Of a DNA stretch of 12,442 nt, positions 2,291 to 12,037 are shown one piece after another (positions within the stretch are counted from its first letter, which is position 1; each line of letters starts with the position of its first letter). Under the pieces are notes generated by a model, which saw nothing but the letters and a program-made list of their open reading frames with translations, did not search any database and was not told the DNA's origin. Location of the stretch: assembly GCA_013150955.1 (NCBI GenBank), contig JAADJD010000003.1, positions 1-12,442 of the forward strand, read 5' to 3'. The stretch is from Calditrichota bacterium. Its GTDB lineage: Bacteria; Calditrichota; Calditrichia; RBG-13-44-9; J042. A program made the translations under genes and the position numbers.

Positions 2291-3640
2291 TCAGAAACTG
2301 TAGGTCACCTTCAGAAACCCTTCGTCCAGTTGCTTGACTTTGCTGAACAGGTTATCGCCTTTCCCCTCAATAATAAAGGCCCCGATGGAAACCTCCAGGG
2401 CATCCACCGGATGGTAGCTGATCTGCGGCCCACCGGCAAACCCAAAATTATCCCGATACCGCGACCAATCCGGAATGGCCAGCGCAATCCCAAACGGCAC
2501 AATCTTTAACGCATCGTTCCAGGCGCGTTTCTCCAGCCGAACCAGCAGATAGTCCACCAGCTCATCCCGTCCCCGCTCGTGTATGAATCCTCTCAAAAAT
2601 TGCCCATTGATGTACCAGCCATTCTTGAACGTGTAATCGGCTCCGATCAAAAATTTTAGGTAAGGTTCATCCTTCAGCACCTGCCGTTTTTGAACATGGG
2701 TTCCGGCGGGACTGGCAATGCGGAGCACACCGTCGATGCGATCCGGGAAAAACAGGGCCGCCTCTGCCCAGATGCCAACTCCCATTATCTCGCCCGCCAT
2801 ATCTGCACCCAGTACCCGAAAGCGGGGAAAGACCAGTTCGGCCTGCACATCGTATGCTGGAGGCACCTCCGAAGGTGTCAGGGTCAAATTGGTTAAAATG
2901 GGCAGATCATCCCGGCCAACGTAGTAACTGAGGGACCAGTCATAAGAGAACAGGGTACCGCTTACTTTGGCCGCAAAGCTGGAGGTTTGCGACAGGCGAT
3001 TTTCCGGCAACAGCACCCGATCCTGATAGCTACGAATGCGCAGATAAGGCGGAACCGGCATCGAGGCGCGAAACGCCTCCGCCCAATCCCCAAAAGGCAA
3101 AATGGCCGGGGTGAACACCGGGATGTACACCATCTGAAGCGAAAGGTCGTTTAGGTAGTAGGTCATCATCAATGCGTTGGTGGGAAAATGCCGTCCGAAA
3201 TCGAAGATATCTTCCAGATCATCGGGGTTTAAATTATCGGTGGGATTCAATCCATCGCCGGTACCCCAGGCAATGCGCTGTCGTCCCACCCGGAGGTCCA
3301 GATTGGGAAGCAAAAAGTCGTACACTTCCACATACGCCTCCCGAAATTCCAGCGTCCAGGGCAATACCCGGTCCTTTTCCCGACGCTGCAAATCGGCGGT
3401 CTGGCTAACCACCGGCAACCCAAAGGCCCGCAGTCGCACCTTGCTGTAAACATACACCCGATCCGAAAAATTGCCTTCCCAGACCAATCCCAGACGATTT
3501 TCATTCCAGGTATACTTACCATTCTGCTGCAGGCGCATCCGATTGTAGGTTTGCACATATCCGCTGGTGGTGATCTGCGCTTCCAGCCAGGCCACAAAGC
3601 AAATCCCAAAGACCAGGGCAAGACTCAGGATACGTTTCAT
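2291..3640 (-). CDS. Outer-membrane beta-barrel protein, DUF1302-like
   Basis: A 449-aa exported protein. Residues 1-21 form a signal peptide (KR, hydrophobic core, cut probably after LEA). The rest alternates short amphipathic strands with aromatic girdles and ends in VTYSF, a terminal-Phe signal typical of BAM-assembled barrels. Residues 119-142 carry the segment GRQRIAWGTGDG...NPTDNLNPDD, which resembles the conserved GxQxxxWG...NPxD region of DUF1302-type barrels. No mature Cys is placed for lipidation. In other Gram-negatives, DUF1302 proteins are often encoded beside an RND/MMPL pump and a LolB-like DUF1329 protein; here a LolA-like gene takes that place, 14 nt upstream. The role is inferred as outer-membrane exit or entry channel of this set. 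AGGAGG stands 10 nt before the ATG. I see no intrinsic terminator after the stop codon. Confidence 0.82.
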   Translation of the reverse strand: MKRILSLALVFGICFVAWLEAQITTSGYVQTYNRMRLQQNGKYTWNENRLGLVWEGNFSDRVYVYSKVRLRAFGLPVVSQTADLQRREKDRVLPWTLEFREAYVEVYDFLLPNLDLRVGRQRIAWGTGDGLNPTDNLNPDDLEDIFDFGRHFPTNALMMTYYLNDLSLQMVYIPVFTPAILPFGDWAEAFRASMPVPPYLRIRSYQDRVLLPENRLSQTSSFAAKVSGTLFSYDWSLSYYVGRDDLPILTNLTLTPSEVPPAYDVQAELVFPRFRVLGADMAGEIMGVGIWAEAALFFPDRIDGVLRIASPAGTHVQKRQVLKDEPYLKFLIGADYTFKNGWYINGQFLRGFIHERGRDELVDYLLVRLEKRAWNDALKIVPFGIALAIPDWSRYRDNFGFAGGPQISYHPVDALEVSIGAFIIEGKGDNLFSKVKQLDEGFLKVTYSF

Positions 3641-3654
3641 ACCGCTGCTCCCTC

Positions 3655-4395
3655 CTATTTGCCTCGTTTCAAGTATCGCCGGGTAAAATATTTGTCCGGC
3701 AGATTCAGATCGAACGAAATATCATCCAGTTGAATGATGGTGCGGTGTTGCTCCTTTAAATCCTGCATCTCCATTTCCCGGGCGACCCAGTAATTCCCCA
3801 CCCGGGTAATTTGACGGCGCTCCATGATTTTCCACAAGTTCCCCGCCGGATCATAAAACTCCACCTTCACGGGATAATAGTTGTCCCGACGCACCCACAT
3901 TTTCAACTTCCCGTAATCCTTCTCCACACCCGGTTTGGGGGTCAACTCCAGAACCCAGAATTGATCGTTGGTTTCCAGAAGCCGGGCATTGAAATCCCGG
4001 GAGTAGCTAAAGGCACTCAGATCATCGTAGGTGAAATCCGTACCGGCGAATTTGGTATTTTTGACGTGAGACGCGATGCGTCGGACTTTGTGAAATGCCG
4101 GCATATAGAGATACTGCACATCGTTGGGCAAACTCAGGAACGCAATGCCTTTCTGATCGGCCGGTGCAGTGAAACGCAGTAATCGCTTCTCGCTTCCTTT
4201 TTGCATGAATTCTGCCTGGCGAATTTTCTGATTGCCCTGTTTGTCCACCAGGATCATCTTCATGGTGGCCTTCTGATCCTTAGGGGCATTGATCACCGAA
4301 TCCACGCGCGACAGTATTCTATTGGCGTCCTGGGCCAGCAATGAACCGCTGAGTAGCAGTCCCAAAATCATCACGACACCGATTGCTCGAATCAT
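3655..4395 (-). CDS. LolA-like outer-membrane lipoprotein-sorting family protein (periplasmic)
   Basis: A 246-aa protein with a signal peptide (about residues 1-21, ending SLLA before Gln) and no lipobox Cys, so probably soluble in the periplasm. The mature part fits the LolA-like family often annotated as outer membrane lipoprotein-sorting protein: ATMKMILVDKQGN, then RLLRFTAPADQKGIAFL, VQYLYMPAFHKVRRI, the FTYDDLS motif at 121-127, and WVRRDNYYPVKVEFYDPAGNLWK later. This fold is an open half-barrel that shelters acyl chains or other hydrophobic ligands. It is not the housekeeping LolA: it is longer, lies away from other lol genes and is translationally coupled to an MMPL exporter. Its ATG overlaps the exporter stop codon as ATGA (4392-4395), with GGAGG 7 nt upstream. 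The probable role is to carry the exporter's substrate to the outer-membrane barrel. Confidence 0.87.
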   Translation of the reverse strand: MIRAIGVVMILGLLLSGSLLAQDANRILSRVDSVINAPKDQKATMKMILVDKQGNQKIRQAEFMQKGSEKRLLRFTAPADQKGIAFLSLPNDVQYLYMPAFHKVRRIASHVKNTKFAGTDFTYDDLSAFSYSRDFNARLLETNDQFWVLELTPKPGVEKDYGKLKMWVRRDNYYPVKVEFYDPAGNLWKIMERRQITRVGNYWVAREMEMQDLKEQHRTIIQLDDISFDLNLPDKYFTRRYLKRGK

Positions 4396-7328
4396 GAGCT
4401 CCCTCCTTCTTGCTTTGGGTTCGATGAAACCGAGGGTGCGGATATCACCTCGGCTTTATTATGGACGACCTGCCGTCCTACAAAACGGGCACGGGTGAGC
4501 AGAATCAGGGCCGGCAAAAACAGAATGGCGCCTCCCGCGCTGAACAGCATGGTGGTGGCCGTCAACCAGCCAAATCGTTGAATGGGAATCAAACGGGCAA
4601 ACACCAGAATGATGAATCCCAGCGCCACCGAGAGCGCGTTGATCAGGATGGCACGGCCTGTGGTGGTCAGGGTTTGCTCCAGGGCTTCCACCGACGTGGG
4701 TTGCCGCTCCAGCTCCATTTTAAACCGGCTGGTAAAATGGATGGCGTAATCGATCCCGATGCCGATGGCAATGCTGGCAATCATCATGGTGGCGTTATCC
4801 AGGGGGACATCCAGGTAGGCCATCAGGGCAAAATTGAACAACACGGTGATAGCGATCGGCGAGATGGCCATCAAACCGCCGGTTATCGAACGCAGCTGGA
4901 ACATCAGAATGAGCGCCACCAGTCCAAACGCAATGGCCAGGCTCTGGATCTGGCTCTTCAACAAACTCTGATCCAGGCGGACAAAAATGGTGGGTAAACC
5001 GGACTGGATCATTCGCAATCGCACGGGTTCACCAGCCATCCCCAGCTGATTGGCCAGTTCCTGTGGCAGGGCAATCCAGTCATCATTCAACAGCCACAGG
5101 CAATCCCGCAGCGCCTCCCGAAAAGACCTATCGCGCTGCAACACCCCGGGGAACAGTGGCAGGATTTGTTCCACTGCCTGCTGAATGCGCTGGTACTCCA
5201 CAAACTCCTCCAGCATCCGGCTCAGGGAGTAAGCCGTTTCGGTGACCGCTTCGGGATCCTCCCGGGCAACCGCCCCGGCATATTGACGAATCCATGCCAC
5301 CAGCGTTTCCTGCGGTACCACCTGGCCGTTCCGCAGATAATCAATGATCCGGGTAGTGATTTTGCGAATGCGCCAGGAATCAACAATTTCGATCTCCGCA
5401 TCCTCCTCAAAAAAGAACATCAAATCCCGGGAAATTTTTTCCAGGCGATCGGGAGGAAACGACACCCGGGGACGTTCCCACACAGCAGCAATGGCCCTGT
5501 CCAGAGCCAGGGTATCCACCACCGCGCCAGCATCCCGCCAGGCCACCTCCCACAAGATGTTCTCCCGAATCCGCTGGAAAATCCAGCGTCGTGCGGCCTC
5601 CTGCCTCAGTGCATTTGTCGGCACCATGACCCGTACGCTGTCCAGCCGATGCTCCAGATACGCATTGATGCGATTGACCGTTTGCAATATCTTTTTTGTG
5701 TCCATGGTACCCAGATTGGCCTGGATAATGCCTTCGCTGGCATCGGCATTCACCAGCTGCACCATGATGGGTTCACTCTCGATAAAAAACCACAGATTGG
5801 CAACCTGATCCCGCGTGGCCGGAATGGTGTAGTGGTGATTCATCACCCGGTTCATTTCGCAGATCAAATCGGCGACCGACTGAGGCTGGCTGACATAAGG
5901 CACGGTCTTCAGGAACCGCTCCAGCCGCCGCATTTCTTTCAAAACCGCGGGATGCTTCAGATCGCCCTGTACCACTATCTGAATGGGTGTGGATCCACCG
6001 AAGTGGATTTCCATCATTTTTTCAGCAATGCGAATGTCCGTATCTTCTGGAAAGTATTCCATAATGTTCACTTCCCGGTGCAAACGGGGCAGCCCCCATA
6101 GCGCCACAACCATCAAGATCACTGACCCCCAGACGATGCCCTTCTTCCAGTGAACAACCCAAATGGCCAGCCGATCCATCAATCGGATCAACAAATGATC
6201 CTCCCGCTGCGAGCTTTGTGTAATCACCCGGGGGAGAGGCAAGTAGCTCAACACCGAGGGAATGACCGTCAGCGAGATGACGAGGGCAAAGGCCACCCCG
6301 ATGCCCGTAAAAATGCCAAAGTGGGTGACGGAGGTTAAGTACGATCCGGCAAAAGAGAAAAATCCAATCAGGGTGGTGACGCCGGCCAGCAGGATGGGTA
6401 CCCCCACTTCGGCCAGCGCCTGTTGAACACAGCGGGATTTATCGGGGCAATCCCGCACTTTTTCCTTATAACGGGCGATCATGTGAATCCCATAGGCGGA
6501 ACCGATTGCAATCAGAATAACCGGCATGATGTTGGAAATGATGGACAATTCGATCCCCAGAAAGGCCATCAATCCCATGGCCCAGACGGTGCTGATCAGC
6601 ACCGTGGTAAGTGGCAGCAGTACCCCGCGGAGGGTACGGAAGCTAAAATAAAGCATTCCCACCAGCATGATCACCACCACCGGAATGAGCTGGATCATGT
6701 CTCGAATAATAATCTGGTTAATCTCGATCATCTGCATGGGCAGACCGGAGAAATAGAGGCGATATCCGGGGGCCAGTTCCCGCGCAATGCGCTGAATTTC
6801 CGTGGCAACCTGCTGTTTGTTCGCCCGTTGTTGCAGGCGATTGATAATGATGGTGATGCGTCCGTCGGGAGAGACGATGCGGCCCCGGTACATGTCCCGG
6901 GAAAGGGTGTACTCCCGAATCTGCCGCAGGGTCCGGGGATCCCGGGGAATCCGATGTTTATCAATCAATCGCCCCACCTCCAGGCCACCTTCCACGGAAC
7001 GGATGTCCAGAATATCCGTCAGGCTCATTACCGAAGCCACCCCGGGAATTCGCGAAAAGGCCTGGGTAAGCTGATGAATGGTCTGAAGCGTCTCGTAAGT
7101 GAACACATCATCCGCTTCCAGTCCCACCAGGGCCAGCTCTGTTCCGGCGTAGGTTTCCCCAATACGGTTGAACAGCACCACGGCAGGATCATCGGGATTT
7201 AAATTGGCCAGAATATCGCTGTTCACGCGAATGTGGGTGAGCTGGTAGGCAAAGAACAGGGTAAGCAGCAGGGTGCCGGAAAGGATCCAGGCACGCCATT
7301 GCAGGATGCGCTGTGCCAGGCGGTTCAT
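4392..7328 (-). CDS. MMPL/RND-superfamily exporter
   Basis: A 978-aa inner-membrane transporter with the twofold RND layout. Predicted helices lie near residues 13-30, 210-228, 235-255, 260-285, 308-330, 336-362 in the first half, and 397-413, 795-812, 817-838, 843-863, 893-912, 920-945 in the second. The second half carries the proton-relay style motif IGIGIDYAIHFTSRF with Asp860. The matching stretch of the first half, AIGSAYGIHMIARY, has Ala278 there instead. Periplasmic loops are unequal, about 180 residues in the first half and 380 in the second. Relatives (MmpL, HpnN and similar) move lipids, hopanoids or other hydrophobic compounds out of the inner membrane using proton flow. No membrane-fusion adaptor gene is next to it. 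GGAGG lies 5 nt upstream of the ATG. It is second in a TetR-exporter-LolA-barrel operon and probably under TetR control. Substrate unknown. Confidence 0.93.
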   Translation of the reverse strand: MNRLAQRILQWRAWILSGTLLLTLFFAYQLTHIRVNSDILANLNPDDPAVVLFNRIGETYAGTELALVGLEADDVFTYETLQTIHQLTQAFSRIPGVASVMSLTDILDIRSVEGGLEVGRLIDKHRIPRDPRTLRQIREYTLSRDMYRGRIVSPDGRITIIINRLQQRANKQQVATEIQRIARELAPGYRLYFSGLPMQMIEINQIIIRDMIQLIPVVVIMLVGMLYFSFRTLRGVLLPLTTVLISTVWAMGLMAFLGIELSIISNIMPVILIAIGSAYGIHMIARYKEKVRDCPDKSRCVQQALAEVGVPILLAGVTTLIGFFSFAGSYLTSVTHFGIFTGIGVAFALVISLTVIPSVLSYLPLPRVITQSSQREDHLLIRLMDRLAIWVVHWKKGIVWGSVILMVVALWGLPRLHREVNIMEYFPEDTDIRIAEKMMEIHFGGSTPIQIVVQGDLKHPAVLKEMRRLERFLKTVPYVSQPQSVADLICEMNRVMNHHYTIPATRDQVANLWFFIESEPIMVQLVNADASEGIIQANLGTMDTKKILQTVNRINAYLEHRLDSVRVMVPTNALRQEAARRWIFQRIRENILWEVAWRDAGAVVDTLALDRAIAAVWERPRVSFPPDRLEKISRDLMFFFEEDAEIEIVDSWRIRKITTRIIDYLRNGQVVPQETLVAWIRQYAGAVAREDPEAVTETAYSLSRMLEEFVEYQRIQQAVEQILPLFPGVLQRDRSFREALRDCLWLLNDDWIALPQELANQLGMAGEPVRLRMIQSGLPTIFVRLDQSLLKSQIQSLAIAFGLVALILMFQLRSITGGLMAISPIAITVLFNFALMAYLDVPLDNATMMIASIAIGIGIDYAIHFTSRFKMELERQPTSVEALEQTLTTTGRAILINALSVALGFIILVFARLIPIQRFGWLTATTMLFSAGGAILFLPALILLTRARFVGRQVVHNKAEVISAPSVSSNPKQEGGSS

Positions 7329-7348
7329 GATGTCCTCCGCAAGATGCT

Positions 7349-7380
7349 AATTTTCGAACAATCCCGTTTTTCGTTCGAGA
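7349..7380. promoter_or_regulatory. Putative TetR operator in front of the exporter gene
   Basis: AATTTTCGAAC (7349-7359) repeats exactly a half of the dyad found before tetR (7993-8003). The partner half, GTTCGAGA (7373-7380), starts 14 nt later. The two TTCGA cores begin at 7353 and 7374, 21 bp or two helical turns apart, the same spacing as in the tetR site. Inverted arms CGAAC (7355-7359) and GTTCG (7373-7377) centre at 7366. The site fills most of the 65-nt gap between the tetR stop codon and the exporter ribosome site. No clear -35/-10 pair could be assigned in the gap. Confidence 0.6.
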
Positions 7381-7393
7381 TCGCGAAAAAATA

Positions 7394-7981
7394 TTAATCC
7401 CGTCTCTCGATGCCTTTGAACAAAATGGTCAACAGGGTATCCACATTTTTCTCGATGGTCTCCAGGGGTACATGAATGGTCCAGTGGTATTCCAGGCCCT
7501 TGAGGGCGGCCACAATGGCCTCTGCCGTGAGATGCACATCCTCAATCTGAAACACCCCCTGATCCATGCCTTCCTGAAGGATGTCCCGGATCACCTGCTG
7601 TTCAAATTCATTATATTCCCGCCGTGCTTTTTCGATGAATGCGTACTGTTCCAGGTACTCATCCCGGAAGGCGGTGTAATAATTGGCCAGCTCCTTAAGG
7701 GCACTGGCGCGGGTGATGACGTAAGCCCGGATCTTACGCTGGGGGGTGCGTTCGGCGCGGATGGCCTGCAGAACTTTCTGGCGCAACTCCCGGCCTTCCT
7801 TGTCGATCACTTCCTGGAAGATGGCCTCCTTGTTCCGAAAATAATAATAGATGCTGGCCTTTCCCATGCGCGCCCGCCGGGCAATGTCCTCGATAGTGGT
7901 TTTGGCCAGCCCAAACCGGGAGAACAGCGCCTGTGCCACCCGGAGAATGTTTTCCTTGCGATCGGCTTTTTCAATCACCAT
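7394..7981 (-). CDS. TetR/AcrR family transcriptional regulator
   Basis: A 195-aa repressor-type protein. The N-terminal helix-turn-helix is clear: ENILRVAQALFSRFGLAKTTIEDIARRARMGKASIYYYF over residues 10-48, ending in the hallmark YYYFRNKE. The remaining helical region would bind a ligand and dimerise; its sequence gives no hint of the ligand. I chose the ATG at 7981; an in-frame TTG at 7993 would add four residues but overlaps the operator arm and has no ribosome site. The ATG itself has only a weak GAAG upstream. The gene is first in the cassette with the MMPL exporter, LolA-like protein and outer-membrane barrel. Two matching dyads, one before its own start and one before the exporter, suggest that it represses both itself and the export genes until an inducer, perhaps the exported compound, appears. 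Confidence 0.93.
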   Translation of the reverse strand: MVIEKADRKENILRVAQALFSRFGLAKTTIEDIARRARMGKASIYYYFRNKEAIFQEVIDKEGRELRQKVLQAIRAERTPQRKIRAYVITRASALKELANYYTAFRDEYLEQYAFIEKARREYNEFEQQVIRDILQEGMDQGVFQIEDVHLTAEAIVAALKGLEYHWTIHVPLETIEKNVDTLLTILFKGIERRD

Positions 7982-7991
7982 CTTCAATCTC

Positions 7992-8028
7992 AAATTTTCG
8001 AACGTTTTGTTTTATTATTCGAAAATTT
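7992..8028. promoter_or_regulatory. Putative TetR autoregulatory operator
   Basis: A perfect 11-bp inverted repeat, AAATTTTCGAA (7992-8002) and TTCGAAAATTT (8018-8028), with a 15-nt spacer and its centre at 8010. The TTCGAA cores start 21 bp apart. It lies 10 nt upstream of the tetR ATG. On the minus strand a weak promoter, TTGCAC - 17 nt - TAAATT, would place its -10 box within the distal arm, so repressor binding would block RNA polymerase. The long span (37 bp) suggests two dimers, as for QacR, or a widely set dimer; that is inference. Confidence 0.68.
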
Positions 8029-8275
8029 AATGCTCCGGGTCGCCCCGTGCAAATGATTTTTTCCAGAATCCAACAATCCACTTGACTGTTTTCTAATCCG
8101 CATCCCCCATCGATGATTCACTCCAAATGATGCACGAAACCCCGAATTTCATGAATCAACACAAATAATAAATCCAGATTATGCAATAGCTTACGAATGA
8201 CACGAATTAAACCCAAATTATGCCTCAGACCACGAATTGCACGAATGAACACTAATAAAAACAATAAACCAAAAA

Positions 8276-8432
8276 ATGCATTTAACCGCGAATCACACGA
8301 ATGAAACCAAAAAATATCTTCAAAATCGCGAGTAAACCCTGGAACACATTTTCATCCAGACACAATCCAAAGTATTTTATTGGTTTTATTTGTGTTCATT
8401 CGTGTCATTCGTAGGCGAATGCATAATCTGGG
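8276..8432. repeat. 157-bp repeat element, copy A, with terminal inverted repeats
   Basis: Starts ATGCATTTAACCGCGAATCA and ends GCATAATCTGGG. Its ends form an imperfect 30-bp inverted repeat (8276-8305 with 8395-8424, 24 of 30 matching). The centre is shared with copy B, for instance the ACCCTG and TTTTCAT segments. Small size, inverted ends and no coding capacity are MITE-like; no transposase or clear target-site duplication is visible. Confidence 0.65.
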
Positions 8433-8500
8433 ATAAAATCCGTTGGATTGGATCTGGAAGAAAATTCGCTTCATGGTTTATTCGTGATTTATCCCAAATA

Positions 8501-8657
8501 ATGCTTTAAACCGCGAATCACGCGAATGAAACCAAACCATATTCACAAAATAACAAATATACCCTGAAACAAATTTTCATTCAGATCTAATCCAATGTAT
8601 CTGATTATTTTTATTTGTGATAATTCGTGCAATTCGTGGTTTAGTGCATAATCTGGG
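8501..8657. repeat. 157-bp repeat element, copy B, with terminal inverted repeats
   Basis: Same orientation and same length as copy A, 225 bp further on, running from ATGCTTTAAACCGCGAATCA to GCATAATCTGGG. Ends pair imperfectly (TAAACC.CGAAT against ATTCGTGGTTTA). The centres differ from copy A by many substitutions and small indels that cancel out in length. This suggests an old duplication or two insertions rather than a recent copy. Confidence 0.65.
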
Positions 8658-8781
8658 TTTATTGATATGATTCGAATTCATTCGCGTGATTCGTGATTTA
8701 ACGCTTTATCTGGGTTGAAATTCCTGTAACCGACTCCCGAAGCAAGCGGGAAGACGAGATCGGGTAACCCGTTTTGACAAA

Positions 8782-10359
8782 TTAATGGGTGGAAAGCGGA
8801 AAGAGGTTCTGAATTTCGGCAAACATTTCCCGGGGGATATCCATCCGGTGTTTCAGCACCCGAATGGCATGATCGACATATTCCGGGCGATTCATGCTGT
8901 TCAGGGCGGCGGCCACGCCGGGTGCACTGGCGGCAAACAACAGGGCTTTCTCTGCCATGTTCAGGGGTTGAGCATCGGGGACGTGTTGACCGAACAGCTC
9001 ATTCAATGGCGCCACTCGATCGCGATTGCGGGCGGTGAGGTATTTTACGATGGCCGGCATCAACTTCTGGAGATGAGCCAGATAGGCATCCAGGTAATCC
9101 CGCAGCTTATTCACCTGCCTGGGGCCAGCGGACAGGAACAACCGCCGGGTGGCCTCCTGAATGCGAGGCAGGTAAACCTGCTGGATCTGCTGCACAACGG
9201 CCAGGGGATTGGTCACCTCGTTGGCCAGTACTTCCAGCGATGCGGATAGCGAGAAAACTTCCCGCATCTCATCTTTCTCTTGCGAACGCGAACGGGGATA
9301 GACCTTCTCCAGCAGTTGGAGCAGGTGGGTTTCGATCTCCCGAAAATTGGTTAAAAAATGGCGAACCTGTTCCTGAAGCCGGGCCAGCTCAGGATGATCG
9401 TAATCGGCAAGGCGAATCATCATCTGTCCCCAGATGGCATGCAAAGGCCGATTGACCACCACTCCCAGATCCAGCCGACGGGCCAGCTCCAGCAGTGGGT
9501 AGCGCCGCCCCTGAAAGGTATGCGCGGCCTCCGTAACCGCCCGGTGCTCAATCACGTTTAACGGAAATTCGATGACCGCAAAGTGTCCTTCTTCCGGGGT
9601 GATGTGTCGTTCCAGGCAAACCTGTTCGTACACCCGCCACACTTCCCCCAGATCAATAAAGTTGTATGATTGGGGATCGTTCACCAGACCATTGGAAGAA
9701 ATACCATAATAGCGAATCAGATTGTCCTGTACCATTTTCTCCAGGGCCAGAAACGCATCGTGCAAACGCTGGTAAAATGCCTTTCGATGTTCGGCCAGCT
9801 GCTGTGGCGAATCGCCCTGGGTACCCAGAAAAAAATATTCCGGGCTATGCAGCAGATACACATCCAGCGTATCCAGGTGCAGGCGGGCCAGGGTTCGGGG
9901 GATTTGATCTTCCAGAAACCGCGGATGCAGGCAATACCACAGATCGGGGGTGTATTTCAACAGGTCTTTAAAGGGTCGCTTTTGCCGCTCCCGCTCCAGC
10001 GCCTGCTCCCGAATTTCGCCCTGCACGTACCCCACTTTGCTCATCACCACCACCTGCTCCCGGGAAAGCCCCTCCCAGACCACCTGCCGGGTCAGCACCT
10101 CGCCAATCAGTGACTCGGCCGTTCCCCCTCCATAAATCGCTGCCGTATCAATAAGGTTGATGCCCTGCTGAAGGGCTTTCTCCAGTGCCTGACGATTGGC
10201 TTCGCTTTCCAGATGGTAGTGGAACGTGCCCACCCCCACCTTCGAAACCCACAATTCCGTTCGCCCCAGACGCCGAAAGGCATCCGGTGCCCATTCGGTA
10301 GCCAGGCGTTGCTGATGAGCGCGGGTGGCCGCTGTGGTGGCGTATCCCGGAAGGGACAT
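8782..10359 (-). CDS. Aldo/keto reductase family protein with a long helical insertion
   Basis: A 525-aa cytoplasmic enzyme, against about 280-340 for typical aldo/keto reductases. The catalytic tetrad is intact: Asp71 and Tyr76 in LIDTAAIYGGG, Lys108 in VMSKVG and His171 in YLLHSPEYF. Early barrel strands run from RLGRTELWVSKVGVGTF, as in the galactose-dehydrogenase-like subgroup, through YYGISSNGL (218-225) and FAVIEFPLN (260-268) to LGVVVNRPL (298-306). Residues about 320-460 are a helical, charged stretch I do not recognise. Then residues 467-503 (AEKALLFAASAPGVAAALNSMNRPEYVDHAIRVLK) look like the usual final strand and cofactor-binding end, so the extra part is an insertion rather than a tail. 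The reaction is probably NAD(P)(H)-linked oxidoreduction of a carbonyl or sugar; substrate unknown. AAGGGG stands 5 nt before the ATG. It follows the membrane-anchored protein gene by 40 nt, likely in one operon. Confidence 0.88.
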   Translation of the reverse strand: MSLPGYATTAATRAHQQRLATEWAPDAFRRLGRTELWVSKVGVGTFHYHLESEANRQALEKALQQGINLIDTAAIYGGGTAESLIGEVLTRQVVWEGLSREQVVVMSKVGYVQGEIREQALERERQKRPFKDLLKYTPDLWYCLHPRFLEDQIPRTLARLHLDTLDVYLLHSPEYFFLGTQGDSPQQLAEHRKAFYQRLHDAFLALEKMVQDNLIRYYGISSNGLVNDPQSYNFIDLGEVWRVYEQVCLERHITPEEGHFAVIEFPLNVIEHRAVTEAAHTFQGRRYPLLELARRLDLGVVVNRPLHAIWGQMMIRLADYDHPELARLQEQVRHFLTNFREIETHLLQLLEKVYPRSRSQEKDEMREVFSLSASLEVLANEVTNPLAVVQQIQQVYLPRIQEATRRLFLSAGPRQVNKLRDYLDAYLAHLQKLMPAIVKYLTARNRDRVAPLNELFGQHVPDAQPLNMAEKALLFAASAPGVAAALNSMNRPEYVDHAIRVLKHRMDIPREMFAEIQNLFPLSTH

Positions 10360-11398: not shown

Positions 11399-12037
11399 AT
11401 GAAGGCACTGCTCTTCGATTTTGATGGCGTGGTGGTTCGCAGCATGGAGTCGCATTACGAGGGCTGGCGACGGGCGCTATCCGAATATGGCATTGACATG
11501 AGTCCGGAGGAACTGTACGTGCTCGAAGGGCAGAACCTGGAAACCGTCGCCAACCAGATTGTGCGCAAATTCAACATTCCCTTCGAAGAGACGCCCCGCC
11601 TGATCGAAAAGAAGCAGTACTATTACGATAAAATCAAGAAGATGGAATCGTATCCCTATTTGATTGATGTGCTACGCTGGGCAAAGGAAAAGGAATTAAA
11701 AATTGCGCTGGTCACCGGAAGCACGCGGGAGCAGGTTCAGCAGGCGCTGGAGAGTTTTGGGCTGGAAAGTTATTTCGATGTGATCGTCACAGCCGACGAT
11801 GTGCAATTCACCAAACCATCTCCCGAACCGTATTTAACAGCCGCTGAACGCCTGCAGGTGGATCCCGAGGCCTGTGTGGTCATCGAGAACGCGCCTCTGG
11901 GAATCCGAAGTGCGCGCAATGCTGGCATGCGCTGTATTGCCATCACCACCACGTTGCCCGCCCCCTTCCTGAAGGAAGCCGACGTGGTGGTGAACGATTT
12001 TCAGGAAGTGCTGGAGGCTTTGAAAAAATTATACTAA
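11399..12037 (+). CDS. HAD-superfamily hydrolase, beta-phosphoglucomutase/phosphatase type
   Basis: A 212-aa cytoplasmic HAD enzyme with all four motifs: nucleophile and acid/base Asp7 and Asp9 in LLFDFDGVVV, Thr106 in LVTGST, Lys139 in TKPSPEPY, and Glu163-Asn164 in VVIENAPLGIRSA. The helical cap between residues 16 and about 85 is of the C1 type, as in beta-phosphoglucomutases and phosphoglycolate or sugar-phosphate phosphatases. The EN pair in place of ED is a known variant in this group. Substrate cannot be fixed from sequence. I chose the ATG that places the first strand at the N-terminus, as usual; a GGGA lies 6 nt upstream. An ATG at 11372 is possible, and so is a TTG at 11327, which has AGGGAG 7 nt upstream and would add 24 residues. 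The 69-aa gene follows after 23 nt. Confidence 0.9.
   Translation: MKALLFDFDGVVVRSMESHYEGWRRALSEYGIDMSPEELYVLEGQNLETVANQIVRKFNIPFEETPRLIEKKQYYYDKIKKMESYPYLIDVLRWAKEKELKIALVTGSTREQVQQALESFGLESYFDVIVTADDVQFTKPSPEPYLTAAERLQVDPEACVVIENAPLGIRSARNAGMRCIAITTTLPAPFLKEADVVVNDFQEVLEALKKLY

Follow-up and report, generated by a model that had tools for sequence, protein, structure and literature searches.

The 12,442-nucleotide stretch of Calditrichota bacterium DNA analysed here (the window) is one whole contig (C59) of a 4.07-Mb genome that is 99.7% complete, and it carries a compact cassette of four minus-strand genes. From first to last these encode a TetR/AcrR-family regulator (tetR, 7394-7993; 199 amino acids from a TTG start), a 978-amino acid MMPL/HAE3-family RND pump (4392-7328), a 246-amino acid LolA-like periplasmic carrier (3655-4395) and a 449-amino acid DUF1302-like outer-membrane beta-barrel with a signal peptide and a C-terminal phenylalanine (2291-3640). 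An earlier note on this DNA had described gaps of 65, -4 and 14 nt between these genes, and the open reading frame coordinates match exactly (7329-7393 between tetR and the pump gene, 4392-4395 shared by the pump and LolA-like genes, and 3641-3654 between the LolA-like and barrel genes). The end point given there, 8028, lies 35 nt past the tetR open reading frame, and the intervening stretch contains an operator-like dyad, O1 (7997-8023; TTCGAA-N15-TTCGAA with perfect half-sites), directly upstream of tetR; a second dyad with one mismatch, O2 (7353-7379), is in the tetR-pump gap, and neither is assigned a strand. The cassette is flanked in the window by genes for ArsR, DoxX, a methyltransferase and an aldo-keto reductase, and lipid-synthesis genes are absent from these flanks. 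The aldo-keto reductase gene (8782-10359) encodes, besides the reductase domain, a C-terminal stretch of some 300 amino acids for which no family scores above its cut-off. Neither a membrane fusion protein nor a TolC-type OEP is among the scanned window proteins.

The TetR, MMPL and LolA-like family calls of the earlier note are borne out by Pfam matches, and its DUF1302-like call for the barrel is supported by matches of that protein's orthologs. The regulator matches TetR_N (PF00440, E=1.6e-16), and the pump matches MMPL (PF03176, E=2.6e-52) above the cut-off; its best NCBIfam model is the HAE3 family TIGR00921, at 319 bits against a cut-off of 352. The structures nearest to the predicted model of the pump (pLDDT 83) are those of MmpL4/5, HpnN, MmpL3 and NPC1. 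An extra helical region lies inside its second periplasmic domain (approximately residues 576-748); long-form pumps carry such an all-helical region of about 170 residues in this domain, and the short-form pumps without it (loci L022, L027, L029 and L030) keep the same partners. The same genome encodes a further 978-amino acid MMPL pump (contig C21; L085, 5410-8346) that adjoins a Na+/H+ antiporter gene, on a short contig that has neither a LolA-like nor a barrel gene. At several short-pump loci (L098, L099, L101 and similar ones) an open reading frame of 180-190 amino acids lies between the MMPL and LolA-like genes, and five proteins adjoining short-pump cassettes match YtfJ_HI0045.

The carrier has a hydrophobic N-terminal signal without a lipobox cysteine and matches LolA_like (PF17131) at an E value of about 1e-58; it also matches DUF1329 (E=8e-13; 48.8 bits, above the cut-off of 23.1), but PF17131 is by far the better model. 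It does not match canonical LolA (PF03548), which this genome encodes separately on contig C29, and among solved carriers Porphyromonas gingivalis LolA3 (9tp6, E=3e-27) is the closest in sequence. The window barrel scores just under the DUF1302 cut-off (E=1.2e-4; 21.7 bits against 23.2), and all 16 aligned barrel orthologs match DUF1302 at E<=0.01 (best 1.4e-9). An AF2 model made with 16 sequences has a mean pLDDT of 79 and more than 20 strands. Conservation is strongest in GTGDGLNPTDNLNPDDLEDI, which the model places in a loop of low confidence (residues 126-151). Foldseek comparison of the model with the PDB returned porins and AlgE (TM 0.37-0.56, AlgE the best at 0.56), and we rejected the barrel fold as a guide to the substrate since these generic matches name none.

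Does this arrangement extend beyond the window? Genome contigs searched with the LolA-like protein yielded 16 loci, with the labels KSB1, WOR-3, Stahlbacteria, Aminicenantes, Krumholzibacteriota, Cloacimonadota, Bacteroidetes or unnamed bacteria, and the cassette order also recurs in Calditrichia-type MAGs. By open reading frame calling and iterated profiles, the pump, carrier and barrel genes share one order at nearly all loci, and tetR is the conserved first gene in most. Because gene order is kept across phyla, the four-gene cassette is real and more than a chance arrangement, and the earlier claim that the genes form one unit holds. Across 14 loci the four proteins have correlated pairwise distances (r 0.67-0.78, Mantel p<=0.0005, values that are not corrected for the species tree). 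Cassette orthologs from different phyla are about 40-70% identical, yet the window cassette's ortholog group occurs in only a few of 40 relatives and the cassette in 6 of 60 Aminicenantes-class genomes; this patchy distribution together with high identity suggests that the cassette has moved between lineages as a unit, by transfer.

The earlier note had also named, as grounds for refuting its reading, LolA-like and barrel genes that occur mostly away from MMPL genes, a condition that has to be applied with caution. A census covered most of the LolA-like places found in the 40 relatives and counted the 36 loci flanked by 4 kb or more on each side. A pump gene lies within 6 kb of the LolA-like gene at every one of them (36/36), but the pump is of the MMPL type at 15 loci, and at the other 21 it is an FtsX/MacB_PCD, LolCDE-like ABC transporter; the barrel gene is present at 30 loci and tetR at 25. 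The best NCBIfam model for the ABC permeases (MacB_PCD/FtsX) is lolCE, at 132-152 bits against a cut-off of 362, and the ATPase best matches LolD, at 230 bits against 308; since these scores are well below the curated cut-offs, we call the modules LolCDE-like and not LolCDE. The window genome itself has three MMPL cassettes (C59, C50 and C15) and one ABC cassette (C14). Thus, the carrier and barrel stay together as a constant unit while the motor can be exchanged, which is the clearest new fact to come from this analysis. The paralogous cassette on C50 (L067, 1305-6529) directly follows the rod-shape genes for MreC, a 199-amino acid open reading frame, the PBP2 transpeptidase and RodA.

Because sister cassettes in this genome and in its class have a LolCDE-like transporter in the pump's place, the job of the pump would be to load the carrier, and the motor swap favours loading in the outward direction. 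The ABC transporter of the sister cassettes, like the LolA fold of the carrier, could also be expected of a specialised Lol-type lipoprotein route, in which lipoproteins are freed from the inner membrane by the pump or ABC transporter and chaperoned by the LolA-like protein. We judge this to be very improbable, given the separate canonical LolA and a cassette without a cognate lipoprotein gene. In addition, the paralogous P. gingivalis LolA3-PG, which has a hydrophobic groove, binds LolB only weakly (PMC13103446), and deletion of lolA3 in Flavobacterium johnsoniae gave no phenotype (PMC11885536).

The region upstream of tetR and the tetR-pump gap were characterized further. An in-frame ATG at 7981 would give a TetR of 195 amino acids, closer to the length of the TetR proteins of most relatives, and O1 precedes the TTG by 3 nt and this ATG by 15 nt. 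The 27-bp dyad has three matches in the window, where 0.07 are expected; the third (11582-11608) is within a coding gene, and the exact dyad occurs at 4 places genome-wide, three of them outside the cassette. Upstream of tetR, dyads equivalent to O1 and with its spacing are found in L016/L070, L017, L022, L024-26, L027, L029, L073, L075 and L077; L016, L017, L029 and L073 have both dyads, and L030 has the second site. TCGA cores at a spacing of 17 are present in 14 of 62 tetR upstream regions, while each other spacing from 5 to 34 is found in three or fewer of the 62, except for spacing 8, with 7. These paired dyads before tetR and the pump gene are newly described and conserved in relatives, and are putative TetR-binding sites. 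No sigma-70 promoter or terminator consensus is present in 7300-8200, and there was no Rfam match. The intergenic region farther upstream of tetR (8120-8740) holds repeats of about 50 nt in both orientations with the core CACGAATTGCACGAATGAACAC, of which the genome has 311 copies at two or fewer mismatches versus 0 for the reversed control. Next to the cassette in L022 is a second, divergent TetR-LolA-like locus (3089-3727) with a strong palindrome, TTGACCGAACGGTCGGTCAA, upstream.

Inducible efflux systems usually have this design, a TetR gene and two operator-like sites, and the cassette appears to share its families and organisation with AmeABCD of Castellaniella defragrans, where an HAE3 pump, a DUF1329 LolA-fold protein and a DUF1302 barrel carry out efflux of apolar monoterpenes; cells deleted for AmeABCD tolerate monoterpenes less well and accumulate more Nile Red (PMC6394551). 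The window cassette might then serve detoxifying efflux of exogenous hydrophobic compounds (solvents, terpenes, hydrocarbons or drugs), with TetR sensing the toxicant. We take this to be a credible though somewhat unlikely explanation; the window genome has four LolA-like cassettes, and lipid biosynthesis genes, for which a foreign-compound pump has no need, lie within or beside orthologous cassettes.

These neighbours were tallied as genes in or beside the ortholog group, with families not preselected and mostly short-pump cassettes as the control. Patatin (5), PlsC acyltransferase (5) and class I/II PLP enzymes of the serine palmitoyltransferase (SPT) type (4) lead among the 63 ortholog-group neighbours, followed by GT2, radical SAM and DUF3108 (3 each) and KAS III and PAP2 (2 each); the 62 control-group neighbours include YtfJ (5), DUF3943 (3), FtsX (3) and patatin (2). 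Lipid enzymes thus head the Pfam tally beside the ortholog group and do not head it beside the control group. A Fisher test (13/22 vs 2/72) used families chosen post hoc and loci that are not phylogenetically independent, and the tally of unselected families is the safer evidence. The linked PLP enzymes are best matched by the serine palmitoyltransferase model NF047600 (541-545 bits, below its cut-off of 640), with BioF at 368-392 bits. The SPT-like gene lies between the LolA-like and barrel genes in L018 and directly after the barrel gene in L022 and L025, and two lineages, L018 and an Aminicenantes clade (L022, L024-26), have it physically linked to the cassette. In the window genome an SPT-like enzyme (531 bits) is encoded elsewhere, on C49, beside a GNAT-type acyltransferase, and the three other genomes examined have the same pair. 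Global co-occurrence with SPT was considered as proof of cargo and rejected: SPT-type enzymes are present in 36 of 40 relatives at the cut-off used, SPT occurs in 54 of 60 Aminicenantes-class genomes versus the cassette's 6, and a close SPT is absent from 5 of 13 cassette genomes. Physical linkage is the one association with SPT that carries weight.

Most likely, the cargo is either a lipid that the cell makes or a membrane-soluble compound. Judged by gene neighbourhood, a lipid cargo is likely and a sphingolipid possible, and because the passenger enzymes differ between lineages the cargo may differ too. A narrower proposal is that the ortholog group of Calditrichota, KSB1, Aminicenantes and allied phyla is a carrier route dedicated to bringing sphingolipid-type lipids, or related amino- or glycolipids, to the outer membrane; we regard this as decidedly doubtful. 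Were it true, it would fill a gap described in Caulobacter: sphingolipids of this bacterium reach its outer membrane, and the authors wrote that a flippase or lipid transporter had not been identified (PMC11087976). Biosynthetic neighbours also bear on the direction of transport. In Thalassolituus, an MMPL/LolA-domain protein that is induced by long-chain alkanes and adjoins a porin was read as a component of alkane transport (PMC6304351), and the cassette could by the same token import lipids from outer to inner membrane in a FadL- or Mla-like manner, with the barrel as entry pore. The biosynthetic neighbours, the exchange with LolCDE-like modules and the export phenotype of AmeABCD all argue against import, which we consider extremely unlikely; outward transport is most likely.

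Overall we think it fairly probable that the cassette is a TetR-repressed envelope exporter of a hydrophobic, lipid-like molecule. Its mechanism can be proposed by analogy. TetR dimers would occupy the 27-bp dyads before tetR and the pump gene and silence both, until a hydrophobic ligand frees them from the DNA. The MMPL pump, to judge by its family and fold, would then use the proton gradient to take the molecule from the inner membrane and pass it through its periplasmic domains; the LolA-like protein, whose fold is assigned by homology, would hold it in an open beta-groove and ferry it over the periplasm; and at the outer membrane the predicted barrel would take it over, to be inserted or released. 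We infer that the cassette parts could make up a complete trans-envelope route in which the LolA-like protein replaces the adaptor. Outside a few model pathways, the passage of lipids across the periplasm is poorly understood, and a constant carrier and barrel served by either a proton-driven MMPL or an ATP-driven LolCDE-like motor imply that the loading and carrying roles are separable. The linked SPT-type, acyltransferase and patatin genes suggest a cargo that can be tested, and through the paired 27-bp dyads the regulator and its inducer can be approached directly.

Among known systems, HpnN (a hopanoid transporter) and MmpL3/4/5 resemble the window cassette in pump family and predicted fold; to our knowledge they have no LolA-like or DUF1302 partner. 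The P. gingivalis PG1175-PG1181 operon and its P. intermedia homologs have, by annotation, a TetR gene, an MMPL gene and an 'outer membrane lipoprotein-sorting protein' gene in one operon, but they differ in having additional ABC transporter genes and in their strong induction by low iron (PMC10434189). The aryl polyene proteins ApeM/ApeL/ApeN of E. coli, an MMPL-type RND and LolA-like route (PMC8253772), and LolA2/LolB2 of the flexirubin system (PMC11885536) share with the cassette a dedicated LolA-like carrier that is proposed to take a lipid to the outer membrane, and the ape cluster an RND pump as well; their acceptor is a LolB-like lipoprotein where the window cassette has a barrel, and their loci are embedded in large biosynthetic clusters. 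AmeABCD, whose authors already noted conserved cassettes (PMC6394551), combines an HAE3-family RND pump, a LolA-superfamily periplasmic protein and a DUF1302-type barrel in one operon, a set that the window cassette appears to share. It differs in its fourth protein, AmeC (COG4447); the window cassette has no further open reading frame, and its orthologs have no constant extra gene. Moreover, AmeB is a 451-amino acid DUF1329 protein compared with the 246-amino acid LolA_like carrier, the Ame pump has 787 amino acids compared with 978, and the Ame barrel 605 compared with 449. A mode of working like that of AmeABCD or of the ApeM/ApeL route would be the best reading by analogy. Because AmeABCD and the aryl polyene route have been published, the concept is already known, and the window cassette represents a variant of it that lacks AmeC, has a small LolA_like carrier, paired dyads and a long pump, and comes with a sister form of the ABC type.
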